Both the position numbers and the translations under genes were made by a program. From NCBI RefSeq assembly GCF_003151075.1, contig NZ_CP029482.1, positions 682,001 through 746,000 on the forward strand: DNA of 64,000 bases, given 5' to 3'. Below, in pieces: positions 25,399 to 34,035 of the stretch. The notes under the pieces were generated by a model that was not told where the DNA came from, made no database searches, and saw only the letters and a program-made list of their open reading frames with translations. The DNA comes from Pseudomonas sp. 31-12. Its GTDB lineage: Bacteria > Pseudomonadota > Gammaproteobacteria > Pseudomonadales > Pseudomonadaceae. How positions within the stretch are numbered: position 1 is the first letter of the stretch; every line of letters starts with the position of its first letter.

Positions 25399-27417
25399 AT
25401 GTTCGCTCCTGCCAATCAACCGCGTTTCACGTTGACGATCGACGGCGTCCAGAATGAGCTCAAGGTGCTTGAGTTCACGGGCACGGAAGCCATCAGCCAA
25501 CCCTACCGCTTTGACCTGGAACTGGTCAGCGAACGGCCAGACATCGAGCTTGAAAGCCTGCTGCATCGTCAGGCGTTTCTGAGTTTCGATGTACAAGGCT
25601 CCGGCATACACGGTCAGATCTTTCGCGTCGGTCAAAGCGACTCCGGGAAACGTCTGACCGGCTATCAAATCAGTCTCGTACCGCGATTGGCCTACCTCGG
25701 TCAGCGCATCAACCAGCGGATCTTCCAGCACAAAAGCGTGCCGGCGATCATCGCGCAGGTCCTCAAGGACCATGGCATCCAGCGCGATGCGTTCGAATTC
25801 CAACTCGGCAGCGACTACGCGCCTCGCGAGTACTGCGTGCAGTACGCCGAAAGCGACCTCGCATTTATCCAGCGCCTGTGCGCCGAGGTCGGCATTCACT
25901 ACCACTTCCAGCACACCCCCGACGGGCATCTGCTGGTGTTCGGTGATGATCAAACAGTGTTCCCGCGTTTGCCCGAGTCGACGCTGTACCTTCCGGGCAG
26001 CGGCATGGCGGCGGATGCGCCGGCCATCAAGCGTTTCAACGTGCGCCTGGAGACCCGCACCACAGCGGTCACCCGTCGCGATTACGACTTCCAGAAACCG
26101 CGTCTTTCCCTTGAAAACCGTGTCGACAGCGAACAGCGCCCGGTGCTGGAGGATTACCACTTTCCCGGCCATTTCACCGATCGCGAATACGGCAAACAAC
26201 TGACGCAACGAGCCTTGGAGCGCCACAACGCGGACTTCCGTCAGGCCGAAGGTCGTGGCGACGATTCTGCCTTGGTCAGCGGACATTTCCTGCACCTCGC
26301 CGAGCACCCGCGTCAGGCGTGGAACGACCTGTGGCTGATCACTGAAATCGAACACCGCGGCCGACAGCCGCAAGTGCTGGAGGAGTCGGCCACCAGTGAT
26401 GACCCGGATGATTTCCAGGGTTATCGCAATACTTTTCTGGCGACACCGTGGGACGTTTCGTTCCGCCCGCCGGTGGGACCGGAAAAGCCACGCATGCTCG
26501 GCTACCAACCTGCCGTGGTCACCGGTCCGGTCGACAGCGAAATCCATTGCGACGAGTTCGGCCGGGTAAAGGTCCAGCTCGCCTGGGACCGCGACGGTCA
26601 GCTCAACGAACATTCCAGTTGCTGGCTGCGCGTGGCTACCGGTTGGGCCCACGACCATTACGGCAGCGTGCTGATCCCGCGAGTCGGCATGGAAGTGCTG
26701 GTGGGTTTCATCGACGCCGATGCCGACAAACCGCTGGTAATGAGTTGCCTGCCCAACGCCGCAACACCGGTGCCACTGGATCTGCCCGCCGACAAGACCC
26801 GCAGTATTTTCCGCAGCCAAAGTAGTCCGGGCGGCGGCGGTTACAACGAATTGCGCATCGAGGATCGCAAAGGCGCCGAGGAAATCTACCTGCGCGCCCA
26901 GCGAAACTGGACTCAGCACGTGTTGAACGATCAGCAGGTGCAGGTCGATAACGCCCGCAGCATTGTCGTCACCGGCACCGCTCGGCATGAGTTGAAGGCC
27001 GACGAGCTACGCATCACCCACGGCCAGCGCCAGACCGAAGTAAAGCTCGACGATCACCTGGTGGTGATGGGTGACCGGCACATTCGCGTGAACAGTCAGG
27101 CGCTGAATGCCAGTCAGCAATTCCACGTCAGCGCGGGTCAGCAAGTGGTCATCGATGGCGGCGCCAGCGCGACGATTCAGGCGGGCGGGCAGTGGATCAA
27201 CATCGGTCCCGGCGGGATTTTCAGCAGCGTGCCGATTCAGGTCGGCGGCGCACTGATGCCGTCGATGGCCGCTGCCCCAGTTTCGCCGAATACGCCGTTA
27301 AAACTCGTCGCCGCGCCCGCAGCGCTGCTAAGCGCCGCACAGATCATGAGCCTGCAAAGCGACGCGCCGTTCTGCGAAGAATGCGAGCGCTGCAAGGACG
27401 GTGTCTGTGCAGCCTGA
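25399..27417 (+). CDS. vgrG: Type VI secretion spike protein VgrG (TssI), orphan
   Basis: A 672-residue trimeric spike subunit. The N-terminal gp27-like half (about residues 8-390) includes the family-typical REYCVQYAESDLAFIQRLCA and GIHYHF. The gp5-like OB-fold follows (DEFGRVKVQLAWDRDGQ, then SCWLRVATGWAHDHYGS), then the needle repeats (about 480-610). There is no C-terminal enzymatic extension. It ends in a short Cys-rich tail FCEECERCKDGVC after an Ala/Pro-rich linker (about 620-660), probably the region that docks the effector. The next gene, a DUF4123 adaptor, starts 17 bases inside this one. No hcp, tss or clpV genes are present, so it must load onto an apparatus encoded elsewhere. Confidence 0.95.
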   Translation: MFAPANQPRFTLTIDGVQNELKVLEFTGTEAISQPYRFDLELVSERPDIELESLLHRQAFLSFDVQGSGIHGQIFRVGQSDSGKRLTGYQISLVPRLAYLGQRINQRIFQHKSVPAIIAQVLKDHGIQRDAFEFQLGSDYAPREYCVQYAESDLAFIQRLCAEVGIHYHFQHTPDGHLLVFGDDQTVFPRLPESTLYLPGSGMAADAPAIKRFNVRLETRTTAVTRRDYDFQKPRLSLENRVDSEQRPVLEDYHFPGHFTDREYGKQLTQRALERHNADFRQAEGRGDDSALVSGHFLHLAEHPRQAWNDLWLITEIEHRGRQPQVLEESATSDDPDDFQGYRNTFLATPWDVSFRPPVGPEKPRMLGYQPAVVTGPVDSEIHCDEFGRVKVQLAWDRDGQLNEHSSCWLRVATGWAHDHYGSVLIPRVGMEVLVGFIDADADKPLVMSCLPNAATPVPLDLPADKTRSIFRSQSSPGGGGYNELRIEDRKGAEEIYLRAQRNWTQHVLNDQQVQVDNARSIVVTGTARHELKADELRITHGQRQTEVKLDDHLVVMGDRHIRVNSQALNASQQFHVSAGQQVVIDGGASATIQAGGQWINIGPGGIFSSVPIQVGGALMPSMAAAPVSPNTPLKLVAAPAALLSAAQIMSLQSDAPFCEECERCKDGVCAA

Positions 27418-28144
27418 TTGCTTGTCACCTCGTGAATGGCTGGAACGGCAGCCACTGAAACCGTCGGAACAACTGTTCGCGATCTTCAGCAATGCCAGCA
27501 CGGCTGAGCCGTTCAAAGCGTGGCGGCAGTCAGTCGCCGCTCAACCGCCTAATCCGATCTGGGCCGACACCGCTTACGCCGAGTGGGAGCCGGTCATGCC
27601 CTACGTCGGAATCGTCTCGGCTGAGGGTGAGTTTCTGGAGTGGGTTGCCACGACCGAGTCTCGCGACTGGGGTTGGCTGGCGGTTTCTTCTGCCTCTCAA
27701 GATGCATTGGTCGAGCATCTGCGCAGCCTAACTCAAGTGCTATTGCCCAACGGTAATGCGGTGTTTTTCCGCTTCTGGGATGGGAGTTATCTGTTGCCGA
27801 TTCTTCAGTCTGCCGACGTAAACCCTACGCAATTAATGCCGGTGCTTGACCGCTGTTTGATCAATGGGCAACCGCTCGATATCGGTGGCAGGCCGTTGAA
27901 ACCCTCCAGGGTTTTTCCGTGGTGGGAAGTTTCCGAGTCGCTACTCGAAGACCTCGCCACCGAGTCCGCGACAACCCGTATCAACAACTTGATGAAGTGG
28001 TTGAGCGAGGACCGTCCTGATCTTTTTGAAGCGTTTTCTGAGCATGTGTTGCGGCACAAAGTCGCGATCTTTCTGCAGGCGCCGGACCTGCCTCAAGCCC
28101 CGAAACAAGACTTGGCGGATTACCTGATGGCGGAGCTGAACTGA
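27401..28144 (+). CDS. DUF4123 effector-loading adaptor (Tap/TEC chaperone)
   Basis: A 247-residue DUF4123-type protein starting at GTG 27401, which overlaps the vgrG end. Family-like features are the N-terminal LFAIFSNASTAEPFKAW, the acidic WEPVMPYVGIVS and the aromatic WGWLAVSSAS segment. DUF4123 proteins hold a cargo effector and hand it to the cognate VgrG tip; they are not secreted themselves. It lies exactly between vgrG and the Rhs toxin and overlaps the toxin start by one base (TGATG), the classical order for such modules. A second GTG at 27407 is a possible start. It should be specific for this VgrG/Rhs pair. Confidence 0.88.
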   Translation: MSVQPDCLSPREWLERQPLKPSEQLFAIFSNASTAEPFKAWRQSVAAQPPNPIWADTAYAEWEPVMPYVGIVSAEGEFLEWVATTESRDWGWLAVSSASQDALVEHLRSLTQVLLPNGNAVFFRFWDGSYLLPILQSADVNPTQLMPVLDRCLINGQPLDIGGRPLKPSRVFPWWEVSESLLEDLATESATTRINNLMKWLSEDRPDLFEAFSEHVLRHKVAIFLQAPDLPQAPKQDLADYLMAELN

Positions 28145-31100
28145 TGGATCAGATTGTGCGCATCGAGCAGGAGCTCGACGGTTTTCCGAACACCCTTTCC
28201 CTCTACCGTGACCAGCTAAAGCATTGGTTTAGCCTGGCGGCAGACAAGGCCAGTCACGCGGCGGATTTACCTTCGCTGATGGGGATGGAACGGATCGTTC
28301 GGTTCGGTAATACCAGCACCGTTGTGAGCAGTGGTGATGACGATTTTCTCTCTACCGTCGTGCAGTGCCCGAAGGGTGGAAAGCTGGAGATCGAGAGCAA
28401 GTTCGAATCGGTTTATGACATTCCCGTGGGGAATATTCAGGTCGATGTGATTGCGGCTGAGAGCGGAGAGATAAAGCAGGTCACGCTCGACGAAAATGGC
28501 AAAGGGACCTTCGAGGGGAAAGAGGGCAAGTTCTACCGCATTCACGTTCACGACGAAGTCACACCGCAGCAAGTTGAAGATCTGTTCTCTTCCTACGATG
28601 GTCTGACGAAGGAGCTGGAAAAGTGGCTGCGTGATGAGTGGAAGACGTTTAAACCGAAGTGGTCGGAATCGTCTGCGGTTGCTGTAGGCAATGGAATGCT
28701 TGCGGGCAGTTGGGCCGCTATCGAGGGCGTGTGGGACGGTATCAGTCTGCTTTCAGAGATCCTCAAGGACCCCGGAAAGTTTGGTGAGCGGTTGGGCGAG
28801 AGTGCCTTAGAGCTGAAAAGGCTCGCGAACACCGCACCGAAGGTCATGGAGAAAGCCCAGCTGCTGGCCAGCGACGAAGCGGCGCTGTGTTTGCTGTTGC
28901 GCTCCGCCAGTCTCTGGTTGGACATGCTGCCGCCCAGCGAGATCGCCGGTAAAACCGCCGAAGCCGTTTCGACGGTGGTGGTGCAGCTATTGATCGACAT
29001 CCTGATCGGTATCGTTCTGACCTTTGCCGGGGCGGGGGCTGGCATTGCCTATTTGACGATGCGTCTGGCTGATCGGGCCGCGCAGTTGCTCAGCGCTGTT
29101 CTGCGCCTCGTCAAAGCAATTTTCACGATCATCAATAACTTCATCAACTACGTCGACCGCTACAAAAAAGTGGCCGCGCGCGGCGTTGCGGCAGGCCTCA
29201 AAAAAGGTCGCATGCAACTGCGCTGGGATGCCAAGCGCAACACCACCCTCAAGCGAAACGAACACCACGACAACGCCCCGGATCAAGCGAAAAACCCCAA
29301 CGGCGACAGCGCCGATTCCGTCGATAAAACCGCCACCAACAAATGCCCGGTCTCGATGGTCACCGGCGAAGAACTGCTGACCCTCACCGACGGTTCGCTG
29401 GACGGCATCCTGCCGTTCGACTTCACCCGGCTCTACCGCACCAGCGCCGCCGAGATCGATGTCGGCCTCGGATTTGGCTGGAGTCATTCGTTATCCCATC
29501 GGCTGGAAATCGACGGCGAAACGGTCATCTGGATCGACCACGAAAACCGACGCACCACGTTCCCGCTGCCGAGCAGCGCACGCCCGGCAATCCACAACAG
29601 CCTCTCGCGCGCTGCGATTTACCTCGGCAATGAACCCGAAGAACTGATCCTCGCCCAGGCCGGCGACGAGGCACGTTTCTACCATTTCCATAATGGTTTT
29701 CTGACAGCGATCAGCGACGGATACGACAACCGTCTACGCATCACCCGCGACCGCCAGGGCCGCATCCAGCGCCTCGACAACGGTGCCGGCCGCGCCTTGC
29801 TGTTGCGCTATGAACGCAGCCATCTGGTTGCCGTCGACTACCAGGTTTTTGCCCCCGCCCAAACCCTCGAAGAAGCCTGGCAGACCGAGCAAGCACTGGT
29901 CTGTTACCGCTACGACGAGCGCAGTCGGCTCATCGAAGCCACCAACGCCGCCGATGAAAGCGAGCGCTACGACTACGACGATCAGCACGTCATTCTCCAG
30001 CGGCAACTGGCCGGTGGGGCGAGTTTCTTCTGGGAGTGGGAAAGGTCCGGCAAGGCCGCCCGATGCATCCGCCACCGGGCGTCGTTTGCGCAGATGGACG
30101 CGCGGTATACCTGGGATGACCAGGGCAGCGTCACCGTCCACAACATCGACGGCAGCGAAGAGGTTTACGTCCACGACGACCGGGCGCGGCTGGTGCGCAA
30201 GGTCGAACTGGATGGCGGCGAACACCTCATGGCCTACGACGACCAGGGTCGGCTGATTGCCGAGCAGGACCCGCTCGGCGCCGTCACCGAATACCGTTAC
30301 GACGAAGTCGGACGCTTGGTGGCGCTGATTCCGCCAGAAGATGAGCCAACGGCCTACGAGTATCGCAACGGTTTCCTGCACGCACGCTATCGCGGCAAAG
30401 CGGTGTGGAAGTATCAGCGCAATGCGCAGGGGGATGTCACCGAAGCGACCGATCCCGATGGCCATGTCACCCACTATCACTACGACGAAAAAGGTCAGTT
30501 GCTGTCGATCCGCTACCCGGACACCAGCCGGCATGTGTTCGTCTGGAATGGCTTGGGGCAACTGGTCGAAGAGACGCTGCCGGACGGTGGCGTACGGCGG
30601 TTTTCCTACGATGCGCTCGGGCGGCAGATTACCCGTCAGGACGAAAACGGCGCGGTCACGAAGTCGCTATGGGACGCTGTTGGCCGACTGATCCAGACGA
30701 TTCTTCCTACCGGTGCCAGTCGCGTTTACAGCTACAACGCCTACGGAAAAATCACCGCCGAACGCGACGAACTCGGCCGCGTCACCCGCTACGAATACCT
30801 CGACGACCTTCACCTGGTCAGCCGCCGGCTCAATGCCGACGGCACCCAGCTGAAGTATCGCTACGACAACGCGCAGCTGTTGCTCACGGAAATCGAAAAC
30901 GAATCCGGCGAAAAATATCAGTTGGCCTACACCCCCGGCGGATTGATCCGACAGGAAACCGGCTTCGACGGCCAACGCACGGCGTATGCCTACGACCTCA
31001 ACGGCCATTTGCTGGAGAAAATCGAGTTTGGCGACGATGGTTCGCAGCTCGTCACCGCCTATGAACGAGACTCGGCAGGACGGTTGCTGGTCAAAACGCT

Positions 31101-32925
31101 GCCCGACGGGCTCAAGGTCGAATACCGCTATGACAGCCTCGGCCGACTGATTGGCGTCGATGATGGCCACGACCATCCGCTGGAATTCGAGTACGACCAA
31201 CAGGATCGCCTGATCACCGAGCATCAGGGTTGGGGCACGCTGCGTTATGGCTACGACGCCTGCGGCCAACTCAACCGCCTGCGTCTGCCGGACGGCAGCA
31301 AACTCGATTACCACCATGCCAAGGGCGGCGCGCTCACCGCCATCGACCTCAACGGCGCAAGGCTTTCCAGCCACCAATTTGCGTTTGGTCGCGAGCAGCA
31401 ACGCCAGCAAGGCCAACTGCTCAGCGAATATGCCTACGACGATCAAGGCCGCTTGAAGGCCCACGCTGTCAGCCAACAGCAACAACCGCTCTATCGCCGC
31501 GACTATGCCTACAGCGCCAACGGCAATCTCGACAGCATCGCCGACACCCGTCACGGCCAGCGCAACTACCAATACGACCCGCTCAACCGCCTGACCCGCG
31601 TCCGTCACACCCGCGACGACCCGGCGGAAAGCTTCGCCCACGACCCGGCCGGTAACCTGCTGATGCAGGATCGGCCTGGCTTGGCGACCGTTAAAGGCAA
31701 TCGCCTGCTGATGCAGGGCGACCGCCATTACGACTACGACGCCTTCGGCAACCTGGTTCGTGAACGTCGCGGCACCGCGCAAAAACTCGTCACCGAATAC
31801 CGCTACGACTGCCAGCACCGATTGGTCGGCGTCACCACCCCGGACGGTCGCACCGCCAGTTACCGCTACGACGCCTTCGGCCGCCGTATCGCCAAAACCG
31901 TCGACGGCAAAACCACCGAGTTCTTCTGGCAAGGCGACAACCTCATCGCCGAAAGCAGCCGCGAACACTACCGCAGCTACGTCTACGAACCCGGCAGCTT
32001 CCGCCCGCTGGCGATGCTCGACGGCAAAGGCCCGCGCAAGGCCTGCCCGTTCTACTACCAACTCGACCACCTCGGCACACCGCAGGAACTGACCGATTTT
32101 GGTGGCGAGATCGTCTGGTCAGCGAAGTACAACGCCTACGGCAAAGTCACTCGCCAGACGTTCGGCGGGGGCGAGCAACTTGAACAGCCGTTGCGGTTTC
32201 AGGGGCAGTATTTTGATGCCGAGAGTGGTCTGCATTACAACCGGCATCGGTACTATGATCCAGAGGTTGGACGGTATCTGACGCCGGACCCGGTGAAGTT
32301 GGCGGGTGGGCTGAACCAGTATCAGTACACGCCGAATCCGACGGGGTGGGTTGATCCGTTGGGGTTGAGCGGGAATTGTCCGCAGTCGGGTAAGACTGGG
32401 TGTAAGGCGCCGGATGATACGACAGGCGTTAGGGTTGATGAGGGTGAGGCGCAGCTACCGAAGCTGACAGGTGAGGAGCGGCGGGCAAGAATTGATTGGT
32501 TATCAGAGTCAGTTTTTTATAGGCGCTTAAAGGAAATGGAAGAATCGATTGATGGTGCCCACTTCCAGCAGAAACATGGTGCACAAACAACCCTGCAATC
32601 CCAGCTTGATCGAATGAAGGAAGGCAAAAATCCAACGACAGGCGAAATAGAAAGGTACGAGAAAGGAAAGAAAAAAGGCGAACCTGTCATTCCTTCGGCC
32701 GCGACGCGTTTTCTGAGTCATCGTGATCAATTTAATGCAATACAACGTGCGGAGTTAATTTTTAGGCAGAGCGGTTTAGATGCTTCACGACAACCAATTG
32801 AAATGGGTAAAAAAATAGGTGAAGGATTTAAAAGGGAGGGGTTGCAGTATGGTGAGCAGACTAGAGCGATCGTCATACTGGACAAAAATGGTAAAGCTAA
32901 AACTTCATATACGGAATTTGACTGA
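28144..32925 (+). CDS. Rhs-repeat polymorphic toxin, type VI effector with an unrecognised C-terminal toxin domain
   Basis: A 1593-residue Rhs effector. Residues 1-60 are helical, about 60-150 look like a beta-sandwich, and 278-306 form a strongly hydrophobic stretch (LLIDILIGIVLTFAGAGAG) in a helical region reaching to about 345. I see no clear PAAR motif. The Rhs core begins near residue 401 (CPVSMVTGEELLTL) and contains many YD repeats (YRYDxxGRL), folding into a cage. It closes with YYDPEVGRYLTPDP and the cleavage-site signature DPLGL (1404-1408). The last 185 residues are the released toxin: H1473 and H1478 in GAHFQQKHG, ATRFLSHRDQ (1520-1529), then MGKKIGEGF and a final TSYTEFD. This order is reminiscent of RNase A-like/BECR-type contact-dependent toxins, but the match is weak. 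Base composition turns AT-rich from about 32490. Confidence 0.92.
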   Translation: MDQIVRIEQELDGFPNTLSLYRDQLKHWFSLAADKASHAADLPSLMGMERIVRFGNTSTVVSSGDDDFLSTVVQCPKGGKLEIESKFESVYDIPVGNIQVDVIAAESGEIKQVTLDENGKGTFEGKEGKFYRIHVHDEVTPQQVEDLFSSYDGLTKELEKWLRDEWKTFKPKWSESSAVAVGNGMLAGSWAAIEGVWDGISLLSEILKDPGKFGERLGESALELKRLANTAPKVMEKAQLLASDEAALCLLLRSASLWLDMLPPSEIAGKTAEAVSTVVVQLLIDILIGIVLTFAGAGAGIAYLTMRLADRAAQLLSAVLRLVKAIFTIINNFINYVDRYKKVAARGVAAGLKKGRMQLRWDAKRNTTLKRNEHHDNAPDQAKNPNGDSADSVDKTATNKCPVSMVTGEELLTLTDGSLDGILPFDFTRLYRTSAAEIDVGLGFGWSHSLSHRLEIDGETVIWIDHENRRTTFPLPSSARPAIHNSLSRAAIYLGNEPEELILAQAGDEARFYHFHNGFLTAISDGYDNRLRITRDRQGRIQRLDNGAGRALLLRYERSHLVAVDYQVFAPAQTLEEAWQTEQALVCYRYDERSRLIEATNAADESERYDYDDQHVILQRQLAGGASFFWEWERSGKAARCIRHRASFAQMDARYTWDDQGSVTVHNIDGSEEVYVHDDRARLVRKVELDGGEHLMAYDDQGRLIAEQDPLGAVTEYRYDEVGRLVALIPPEDEPTAYEYRNGFLHARYRGKAVWKYQRNAQGDVTEATDPDGHVTHYHYDEKGQLLSIRYPDTSRHVFVWNGLGQLVEETLPDGGVRRFSYDALGRQITRQDENGAVTKSLWDAVGRLIQTILPTGASRVYSYNAYGKITAERDELGRVTRYEYLDDLHLVSRRLNADGTQLKYRYDNAQLLLTEIENESGEKYQLAYTPGGLIRQETGFDGQRTAYAYDLNGHLLEKIEFGDDGSQLVTAYERDSAGRLLVKTLPDGLKVEYRYDSLGRLIGVDDGHDHPLEFEYDQQDRLITEHQGWGTLRYGYDACGQLNRLRLPDGSKLDYHHAKGGALTAIDLNGARLSSHQFAFGREQQRQQGQLLSEYAYDDQGRLKAHAVSQQQQPLYRRDYAYSANGNLDSIADTRHGQRNYQYDPLNRLTRVRHTRDDPAESFAHDPAGNLLMQDRPGLATVKGNRLLMQGDRHYDYDAFGNLVRERRGTAQKLVTEYRYDCQHRLVGVTTPDGRTASYRYDAFGRRIAKTVDGKTTEFFWQGDNLIAESSREHYRSYVYEPGSFRPLAMLDGKGPRKACPFYYQLDHLGTPQELTDFGGEIVWSAKYNAYGKVTRQTFGGGEQLEQPLRFQGQYFDAESGLHYNRHRYYDPEVGRYLTPDPVKLAGGLNQYQYTPNPTGWVDPLGLSGNCPQSGKTGCKAPDDTTGVRVDEGEAQLPKLTGEERRARIDWLSESVFYRRLKEMEESIDGAHFQQKHGAQTTLQSQLDRMKEGKNPTTGEIERYEKGKKKGEPVIPSAATRFLSHRDQFNAIQRAELIFRQSGLDASRQPIEMGKKIGEGFKREGLQYGEQTRAIVILDKNGKAKTSYTEFD

Positions 32926-33284
32926 TGAATAGGCCCTACACACTGTGGAGTATACGAGGTCTGCTTTTTGTTTTTGATATTGAAAATACTCATGATTTGG
33001 AGCGGGAGGAGATTATTGTTTCGAAAAATGTGAATGATGACAAAGAGCTTGCCGAACTTTTTGACGTTTTGCTACGTCCGGAATTTTTTATTTATAGTGA
33101 GCAGGAGCGAATTTTATTAATCGAAACCTTGTCTTATTTTTTAGACGTAGGTAATAGTTTTGATGAGATTTTTTCAAAAATGGACACTTATTTTGATGAT
33201 GAAGTTAAAGATCAAAGGCGGTTTATGACCGTTCTCATTAATTGTTTGGAGCGGTATCAAAACCAAGGAAGTGGCAATAATTAA
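32925..33284 (+). CDS. Probable cognate immunity protein of the Rhs toxin
   Basis: A 119-residue acidic protein with no recognised domain. Its ATG overlaps the toxin stop (TGATG), the position where immunity genes of polymorphic toxins are found, and it shares the AT-rich composition of the toxin tip rather than the GC-rich Rhs core. It has no signal peptide or membrane helix, so it should act in the cytoplasm, consistent with a toxin that attacks a cytoplasmic target such as RNA. Many Asp/Glu residues (DIENTHDLEREE, YFDDEVKD) would suit binding to the basic toxin domain. Function is inferred from position only. Confidence 0.75.
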   Translation: MNRPYTLWSIRGLLFVFDIENTHDLEREEIIVSKNVNDDKELAELFDVLLRPEFFIYSEQERILLIETLSYFLDVGNSFDEIFSKMDTYFDDEVKDQRRFMTVLINCLERYQNQGSGNN

Positions 33285-33349
33285 TTCCTGCAGAAGGAAA
33301 AAGTCTGATGGCTGAACAGATTTTTTTGCCAAAGGGGACTGCCAAAGTG

Positions 33350-33440
33350 CCAAAGGGGACGGATTTATTTTTGCTGATTTTTTGCTGCCAGCTTCGAAGG
33401 TGTTGTTATAGAGCAACAAATATATCCGTCTCCTTTGTGG
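33350..33440. repeat. Inverted GGGGACGGATTTATTT-type repeats in the 33285-33615 gap
   Basis: CCAAAGGGGACGGATTTATT (from 33350) and an inverted, imperfect copy at 33418-33440 lie about 50 bases apart. A partial extra copy of the CCAAAGGGGAC end lies at 33329-33339. Sequences with the TAAATCCGTCCCCTTTG motif are familiar as flanks of small transposase/REP-type elements in Proteobacteria, so this looks like a remnant with no transposase left. No gene is visible in 33285-33615. Confidence 0.5.
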
Positions 33441-33615
33441 TTTAACTACTGCTTCACTTGTGCTCGCGAATGCAACATTGTTTTGACAGTGGTAGCGAGC
33501 GGATACACTGTTGGAAAGTGTCATTGAGGAATTAGAAGAATAAATCCGCCATCTTTTTCAAGCTTGATAAGGATAATGTGCTGCGGCCTTTTAATGCTTA
33601 TCCTTCGGGGAGAAA

Positions 33616-34035
33616 ATGATGCTGCGAGATCCATTTTTAAATGAAGAATTTCAACCCGATTTGATGTGGTTTATTGGCGTCTTTGATGTTTATGATCGCG
33701 AGGAAACTCGAGGTGCGGAGCTGGAAGTGTTTAACCCTAATGATCGCATTGACAGAACGGAACTGATCAAAAGATACAGCTTGAATCTAGGTTGTCTGTC
33801 CTATAGACATAAGCTCGTGCTGATGGATTTTCTAGCGGAAAAGCTAAACGATGCGTCTTATGACTTTCAGAGTTTGTTTGATATAGATGAAGAAGATGCA
33901 GGGAGTTGGCCGCGTGGTGAGTGGTATGCATTGGCGGATCCCCGTGGATTTCTTCAAGATGTCTATACGTTGGCTCAGGAGGTCTGGAAGGAAGATGTTC
34001 TTTTAGCGAGCTTTGAAGATCGGGCCAGTTGGTGA
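33616..34035 (+). CDS. Second immunity-like protein (orphan, distantly similar to the first)
   Basis: A 139-residue acidic protein of unknown family with a GGGGAGA ribosome-binding site at 33607-33613 and tandem ATGs (33616, 33619). Two stretches resemble the neighbouring immunity protein in order and spacing: FIGVFDVYDREETRGAELEV against LLFVFDIENTHDLEREEIIV, and a helix ending YDFQSLFDID against NSFDEIFSKMD. It is AT-rich like its neighbour and separated from it by a mobile-element remnant. The likeliest reading is an orphan immunity gene kept from an earlier toxin tip; an unrelated cargo gene remains possible. No toxin gene precedes it directly. Confidence 0.6.
   Translation: MMLRDPFLNEEFQPDLMWFIGVFDVYDREETRGAELEVFNPNDRIDRTELIKRYSLNLGCLSYRHKLVLMDFLAEKLNDASYDFQSLFDIDEEDAGSWPRGEWYALADPRGFLQDVYTLAQEVWKEDVLLASFEDRASW

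Follow-up and report, generated by a model that had tools for sequence, protein, structure and literature searches.

The 64,000-nucleotide stretch of Pseudomonas sp. 31-12 analysed here (the window; NZ_CP029482.1, positions 682,001 to 746,000 of the forward strand) carries an Rhs effector gene on the plus strand (28144..32925), a single open frame of 1593 codons with the Pfam domains RHS_repeat, DUF6531 and RHS. We put at roughly 65% the probability that the C-terminal tip of its product acts as the toxic domain in a type VI secretion system (T6SS) Rhs effector, that it cleaves RNA independently of metal through an active site like that of the PF18431 toxins, and that a 119-residue protein serves as its immunity protein. 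In this scheme, inferred throughout (the ribonuclease (RNase) chemistry and the roles of the residues as well as self-cleavage, secretion and the function of the immunity protein), the Rhs shell would cut itself after L1408 and free residues 1409-1593, and the freed domain would be directed at other bacteria via type VI secretion. In the target cell it would cleave RNA without a metal, with H1478, R1490, T1587 and Y1589 forming an active site as in CdiA-CT of Yersinia kristensenii (CdiA-CT Ykris) and H1473 as a further conserved histidine. The producer would be protected by the acidic 119-residue protein encoded at 32925-33284.

The tip and its family

The first-pass annotation, made from the DNA letters and their translations, had described an unrecognised domain of 185 residues following the DPLGL motif (residues 1404-1408, codons 32353-32367), with an abrupt change in base composition near 32490. 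The length is exact, residues 1409-1593 making up the remainder of the protein, and the motifs listed for it (GAHFQQKHG, ATRFLSHRDQ, MGKKIGEGF and TSYTEF) are all present in the open reading frame. A maximum-likelihood analysis of 31500-33284 placed the change point at 32487, with a GC content of 62% before and 39% after it (log-likelihood ratio of 50). The switch after DPLGL also held, and the Rhs_assc_core domain of NCBIfam (residues 1329-1408) ends on the last residue of this motif, but the start of the domain had to be moved. Residues 1409-1440 (32368..32463, plus strand) are a linker that also occurs in Rhs proteins with other tips, being 88% identical in P0057 and 84% in P0073. In P0073 the identity to the window protein is 94% over residues 1201-1408 and collapses from 84% in the linker to 10% over 1441-1470, so the toxin module starts around residue 1441 and not at 1409. 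This module, residues 1441-1593 (32464..32922, plus strand), is supported by alignments A1 and A4, an AlphaFold2 model and ratios of nonsynonymous to synonymous substitution rates (dN/dS). The isoelectric point (pI) of the tip is 9.30.

Searches of Pfam and NCBIfam gave nothing in the window tip at an expect value (E) of 1 or lower, which bears out its description as unrecognised. The tip was likewise unmatched in PADLOC and PHROGs, a PDB search by sequence gave no significant match, and 31 pattern matches in phage contigs included no relative. NCBIfam searches with the 41 aligned tips described below gave single-member matches only (best VioB, E 0.0027), which were taken as chance. No paper naming the family in its title or the start of its abstract was found in literature searches that were word-based, not sequence-based.

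By the homology searches, the tip belongs to a real family that is nameless in the libraries searched and occurs mainly in Pseudomonas. A search with the Rhs tip region returned 73 proteins at E <= 0.01 among 534 candidates, including the window's own, a second related tip type (A2) and P0073, which shares the linker only. A profile search of short proteins, with 3175 candidates, returned 95 at E <= 0.01; their source names include Pseudomonas, Serratia, Burkholderia, Proteus, Cronobacter, Paenibacillus and a Clostridiaceae metagenome-assembled genome. At E <= 0.001, whole-genome searches found a match in 21 of 194 relatives, the genome of the window being one of them, with all 21 in one genus of 61; the window's own was the single match among 369 genomes class-wide and one of 7 among 398 phylum-wide. 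Weaker genome matches included A2-type tips (L028, L035, L036 and L038), partial tips and distant full members (L025 and L027). Three plasmid records, one from Variovorax and two from Proteus, also matched, and the genome containing the window has one copy. In G852, from another family of the phylum, four partial matches to the tip profile (L037 and L039-L041) lie within about 5.4 kb, possibly as an array of tip cassettes.

Conservation was assessed in a 41-row alignment (A4) consisting of the window tip, 11 loci, 2 pieces from the tip-region search and 27 of 40 non-redundant pieces of short proteins. The 40 pieces derive from those 82 of the 95 profile-search proteins that cover more than 100 profile positions, and the remaining 13 pieces, near-duplicates or incomplete, were left out by choice. 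The histidine pair H1473-x4-H1478 (32560..32577, plus strand) is invariant, H1473 in all 40 rows that reach it and H1478 in 41 of 41, and P1497, D1528 and G1561 are also invariant. R1490 (32611..32613, plus strand), which aligns with the conserved Arg of PF18431 and would be the counterpart of Ykris R186, is Arg in 37 rows and Ser in 4. In T1587-S-Y1589 (32902..32910, plus strand), the presumed counterpart of Ykris T276-x-Y278, the first position is Thr in 37 rows and Ser in 4, and the last is Tyr in 23 and Phe in 18. The first-pass annotation had proposed assays of the tip with H1473, H1478 or H1526 mutated; the first two are among the best conserved positions, but H1526 is His in only 22 of the 41 tips (Asn, Tyr, Pro or Ala elsewhere) and was therefore ruled out as catalytic, R1490, T1587 and Y1589 being better candidates. 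The tip dN/dS was 0.20, 0.18 and 0.09 against L001, L003 and L004, the last with nearly saturated synonymous sites, which indicates purifying selection.

Comparison with RNase A-like and BECR toxins

An AlphaFold2 model built on the 41-row alignment had a mean predicted local distance difference test score of 96.8 and a predicted template modelling score of 0.89. The predicted elements run from three helices through one strand and two further helices to four strands (aaabaabbbb). The first-pass annotation had likened the tip to RNase A-like or BECR-fold RNases, and this is still the best reading, although the tip stays below the PF18431 cut-off and the profile-profile scores are moderate. CdiA-CT of Y. 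kristensenii (PDB 5E3E) belongs to PF18431 (RNAse_A_bac, "Bacterial CdiA-CT RNAse A domain"). Members of PF18431 have an H-x4-H pair, with, in the first row of alignment A3 (H7-R18-T108-F110), Arg at +11, Thr at +101 and Phe at +103 from the second His. These spacings are those of the active site H175, R186, T276 and Y278 given for the RNase A-like CdiA-CT Ykris in the relevant part of PMC9086364, from which H175 is expected to be the second of the two His. Counting from H1478, the tip has R1490 at +12, T1587 at +109 and Y1589 at +111 against +11, +101 and +103 in Ykris, in the same order and with longer spacing because of an insert relative to PF18431, in a residue mapping that rests on pattern and profile and not on superposition.

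In both the tip and PF18431, H-x4-H is followed by Arg, there is a strand of the form (A)S/A-T-x-F, a Gly is conserved and the C-terminal strand reads T-x-[YF]; both are also exchangeable tips, PF18431 domains being found on open frames of about 1560-1650 amino acids in the same genus. Relative to PF18431 the tip has an additional helix at its N-terminus, and it is longer by one residue from H1478 to R1490 and by an insert from R1490 to the ATRF strand; the invariant P1497 and D1528 and the GEG[YF] motif are its own. For profile-profile comparison with hhalign, sets of 11 or 33 full-length PF18431 matches were used, leaving out partial or stop-containing ones (L052 and L054-L056) and those with no locus. 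The 41 tips against the 33 PF18431 members gave 64% in local and 73% in global mode, colinear over the whole PF18431 domain and with the His, Arg and Thr aligned; controls with reversed profiles and with both immunity alignments did not exceed 0.2%. After removal of the N-terminal helix the comparison scored 26.7, and the highest of 100 column-shuffled controls scored 17.4. On this sequence evidence the conserved residues point to the PF18431 side of the RNase A/BECR group, and a PF18431-like mode of action is the most likely one for the tip.

Several observations weigh against this assignment. No member reached the Pfam cut-off of PF18431 (27 bits), and the window tip had no match to it; sub-threshold matches were seen for 3 of 26 members (best E 0.012) and 2 of 41, and the tip is therefore not filed as a PF18431 member. 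With the 11-member set hhalign gave only 28%, without the N-terminal helix the value falls to 33-41%, and over 30 random subsets it varied between 2 and 78%. The histidine region lay outside the alignment in the 11-member comparison and in the local run without the helix, and the A2-type tips gave at most 2.7% against PF18431. The Ser at position 1490 and the Phe at position 1589 in the rows counted above also depart from the Ykris residues, and we found no biochemical evidence for any member of the tip family. Values of 95-97% obtained with N-terminally extended PF18431 sequences were discarded because the Rhs linker common to both sets could carry them.

The order of elements, too, is as close or closer to a BECR transfer RNA (tRNA)-cleaving RNase as to Ykris. 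As described in PMC9086364, in the passages on these folds, Ykris has the order aabaabbbbb and the BECR tRNase Kp342 has five helices followed by four strands; the edit distance of the tip is 2 to Ykris and 1 to Kp342, or 1 to each once the N-terminal helix is removed. These distances fit the tip to the RNase A/BECR group without a choice within it, and element order was dropped as an argument for Ykris. tRNA is the target of most of the characterised BECR toxins of contact-dependent inhibition (CDI) systems covered in that part of PMC9086364. One alternative to a relationship with PF18431 is that the tip is a tRNase with the BECR fold from a different clade, for example Ntox35, cutting tRNA by a two-histidine mechanism with H1473 and H1478. 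H1473 is as invariant as H1478, and H1473, KH1478 and T/S1587 fit the signature of Ntox35 (PF15534), a predicted BECR RNase for which the section of PMC3482391 concerned describes a pair of histidines near the N-terminus ("H, KH") and, on the final strand, a Ser/Thr. Against an Ntox35 assignment, PF15534 was absent from the families matched by 26 members at E <= 10 and by 41 members at E <= 1; in searches for Ntox35 sequences for a profile comparison it was found in none of 144 and none of 398 genomes. The best profile match in the PDB, a weak one, was to the C-terminal domain of the BECR tRNase YxiD (E 0.046 and 0.077) and spans only about 41-44 C-terminal residues. The YxiD type needs C-terminal histidines (His521 and His528 in HxVP, in the text available from PMC12700104); membership in Ntox50/YxiD was rejected because the tip lacks them, ending in TSYTEFD with no conserved C-terminal His and no HxVP. 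R1490 and the Thr-x-Tyr/Phe pair point to PF18431 instead. A BECR tRNase of another clade is the main rival reading but seems to us unlikely.

Less probable still is a toxin of another activity, for example one that modifies nucleotides or proteins, in which the conserved His, Arg, Asp and Thr would resemble an RNase site by chance. The RNase model assigns no role to D1528 and G1561, although these vary as little as the histidines, and such a toxin would also be in keeping with the moderate PF18431 values and with our finding no experiment on any tip member. It is opposed by the agreement of four catalytic positions with a solved RNase in order and spacing, and by the far lower values of the controls. 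A match to a characterised non-nuclease toxin family had been set against a nuclease by the first-pass annotation; searches of Pfam and NCBIfam with 26 and 41 members yielded none that was convincing, only scattered single-member matches.

Predicted immunity gene and tip replacement

The predicted cognate immunity gene (32925..33284, plus strand) encodes 119 amino acids with a pI of 4.35, and its ATG overlaps the TGA of the tip by one base. Each of the 25 other loci examined in the genus (L001-L008, L010-L024, L032 and L033; 24 distinct tips, L006 and L010 being identical) has a homologue (family A5) directly 3' of the tip. At the 22 loci with an intact tip this homologue starts no more than 4 bases ahead of the end of the tip stop codon and no more than 7 bases past it; the tip frames of L002, L023 and L024 are broken. 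L034, outside the genus but in the same class, has a weaker homologue (49 bits), and at the distant members L025, L027, L029 and L030 no homologue was found at E <= 0.001. The immunity gene has a dN/dS of 0.11-0.12 against two relatives. The Pfam matches of family A5 are unconvincing, limited to single members with E 0.039 at best, and a Cas8a match of the immunity protein (E 0.0045, 53 residues) was taken as chance. In L058 (2195-2530) an A5-type immunity gene, apparently an orphan directed at the window's tip type, lies 3' of a PF18431-type tip with no window-type tip detected beside it.

Tip exchange at this locus is well supported. The cores of P0057 and P0073 are 99% and 94% identical to that of the window protein over residues 1201-1408, and their tips only 24% and 22% over 1471-1593. 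At 272 bases beyond the immunity gene lies a fossil, the 3' end of an A2-type tip with its final 20 codons and stop codon (33557..33619, plus strand; 70% identical over 20 residues to the end of an A2-type tip, E 1e-4). It is followed by an intact gene of 139 codons (33616..34035, plus strand; product pI 4.25) which is 91% identical to the gene behind the A2-type tip in L028, has a dN/dS of 0.20, and is probably the orphan immunity gene of the displaced tip. The segment 33560-34086 has 92% DNA identity over 527 bases to L028, where it covers the 3' end of an A2-type tip that is intact, together with the next gene. A fossil A2-type tip and an intact immunity gene of its family (A6) behind a new module are a mark of tip replacement. 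The first-pass annotation had taken the change in composition as such a mark, and the shared cores with other tips and the fossil speak well for the exchange it proposed. Orphan tip and immunity modules are well known from CDI and Rhs loci, as the portions of PMC3150448 and PMC10539506 devoted to them report, so the process is not new, and the window shows it clearly. The low-GC segment 33285-33556 contains a repeated ccaaaggggac motif, and 33343-33436 or parts of it match L004 at several places and may be a small repeat element.

The A2-type Pseudomonas Rhs tips (P0057-P0060, P0062-P0066 and P0068-P0072) are remote homologues of the window tip by profile comparison, with an hhalign value of 98.9%; when the N-terminal helix common to both is removed the value is 95.5% (E 1.5e-8), and 100 shuffles reached 2.6% at most. 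The homology extends over the whole module. The A2 type has the same two His and Arg and, near its C-terminus, T-x-[FH]-P; it differs in having SSQF/SSQY in place of ATRF, GRGY[KR]PN in place of GEGY, and immunity family A6. Family A6 had no convincing Pfam match, and homology between A5 and A6 is unsupported (hhalign 10.9%). The reverse order is found in L026, in which an intact A2-type tip and A6 gene precede a window-type tip fragment and A5 gene. A partial A2-type tip followed by an A6 gene is also present in L001, L002, L007, L013, L021, L061, L073, L074 and L075, and in the last four of these PF18431 matches lie in front of the A2/A6 remnants. Behind the PF18431 tip and A2/A6 fossil of L074 there is, at 2177-2305, a fragment of the last third of the window tip family, leaving traces of all three types at one locus.

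Locus layout and meaning

Upstream of the Rhs gene lie two genes on the plus strand. The first (25399..27417) encodes a spike protein of 672 amino acids, named VgrG from its domains (Phage_GPD 8e-82, Gp5_trimer_C 2e-23 and Phage_base_V 4e-10) and likely the carrier of the Rhs effector. The second (27401..28144) encodes a DUF4123 protein of 247 amino acids from a GTG start (PF13503, E 2.6e-19), which is likely an effector adaptor. A TssC/VipB homologue is present in the genome. From VgrG, the DUF4123 protein and the TssC homologue we infer that the Rhs effector would be secreted by a T6SS. The locus has the features of a polymorphic T6SS Rhs effector, namely an Rhs core with an Asp self-cleavage site, a variable tip, a small acidic gene at the 3' side and VgrG and DUF4123 genes at the 5' side. 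No PAAR domain was matched by Pfam.

The predicted C-terminal self-cleavage region (32287..32367, plus strand) comprises D1382, D1404 and PTGWVDPLGL, with a predicted cut after L1408. D1382 and D1404 are 22 residues apart, the distance that also separates the catalytic pair D1324/D1346 in RhsA of P. protegens, and PTGWVDPLGL matches the cleavage consensus PxxxxDPxG[WLF], both as stated where PMC8765631 treats the cleavage site. From the Asp spacing and the consensus match, release of residues 1409-1593 is predicted. P. protegens RhsA thus resembles the window protein in its Rhs shell, Asp pair, cleavage site and nearby VgrG, in a comparison that covered the shell and the neighbouring genes, but it has an Eag chaperone where the window has the DUF4123 protein.

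The tip represents an unnamed toxin family of a known kind, with a plausible RNase A-like mechanism and a predicted cognate immunity gene. More tentatively, and with less than even confidence, we suggest an unnamed and widespread clade of bacterial RNase A-superfamily toxins that interchanges with the A2 type and PF18431 on Rhs cores of this genus, each type leaving its immunity gene behind. Since it has active-site surroundings of its own (H-x4-KH, R, the invariant D1528, GEG[YF] and T-x-[YF]), such a clade may have its own RNA target. If these readings are right, a toxin family left blank by current libraries would gain a catalytic mechanism open to testing as well as a predicted immunity protein, and a clade with relatives reaching into the Firmicutes (by source names, Paenibacillus and Clostridiaceae) would be added to the bacterial RNase A-like toxins. 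The locus itself is a compact record of tip replacement, with a new tip and immunity pair ahead of 20 codons of the old tip and an old immunity gene that is still intact.

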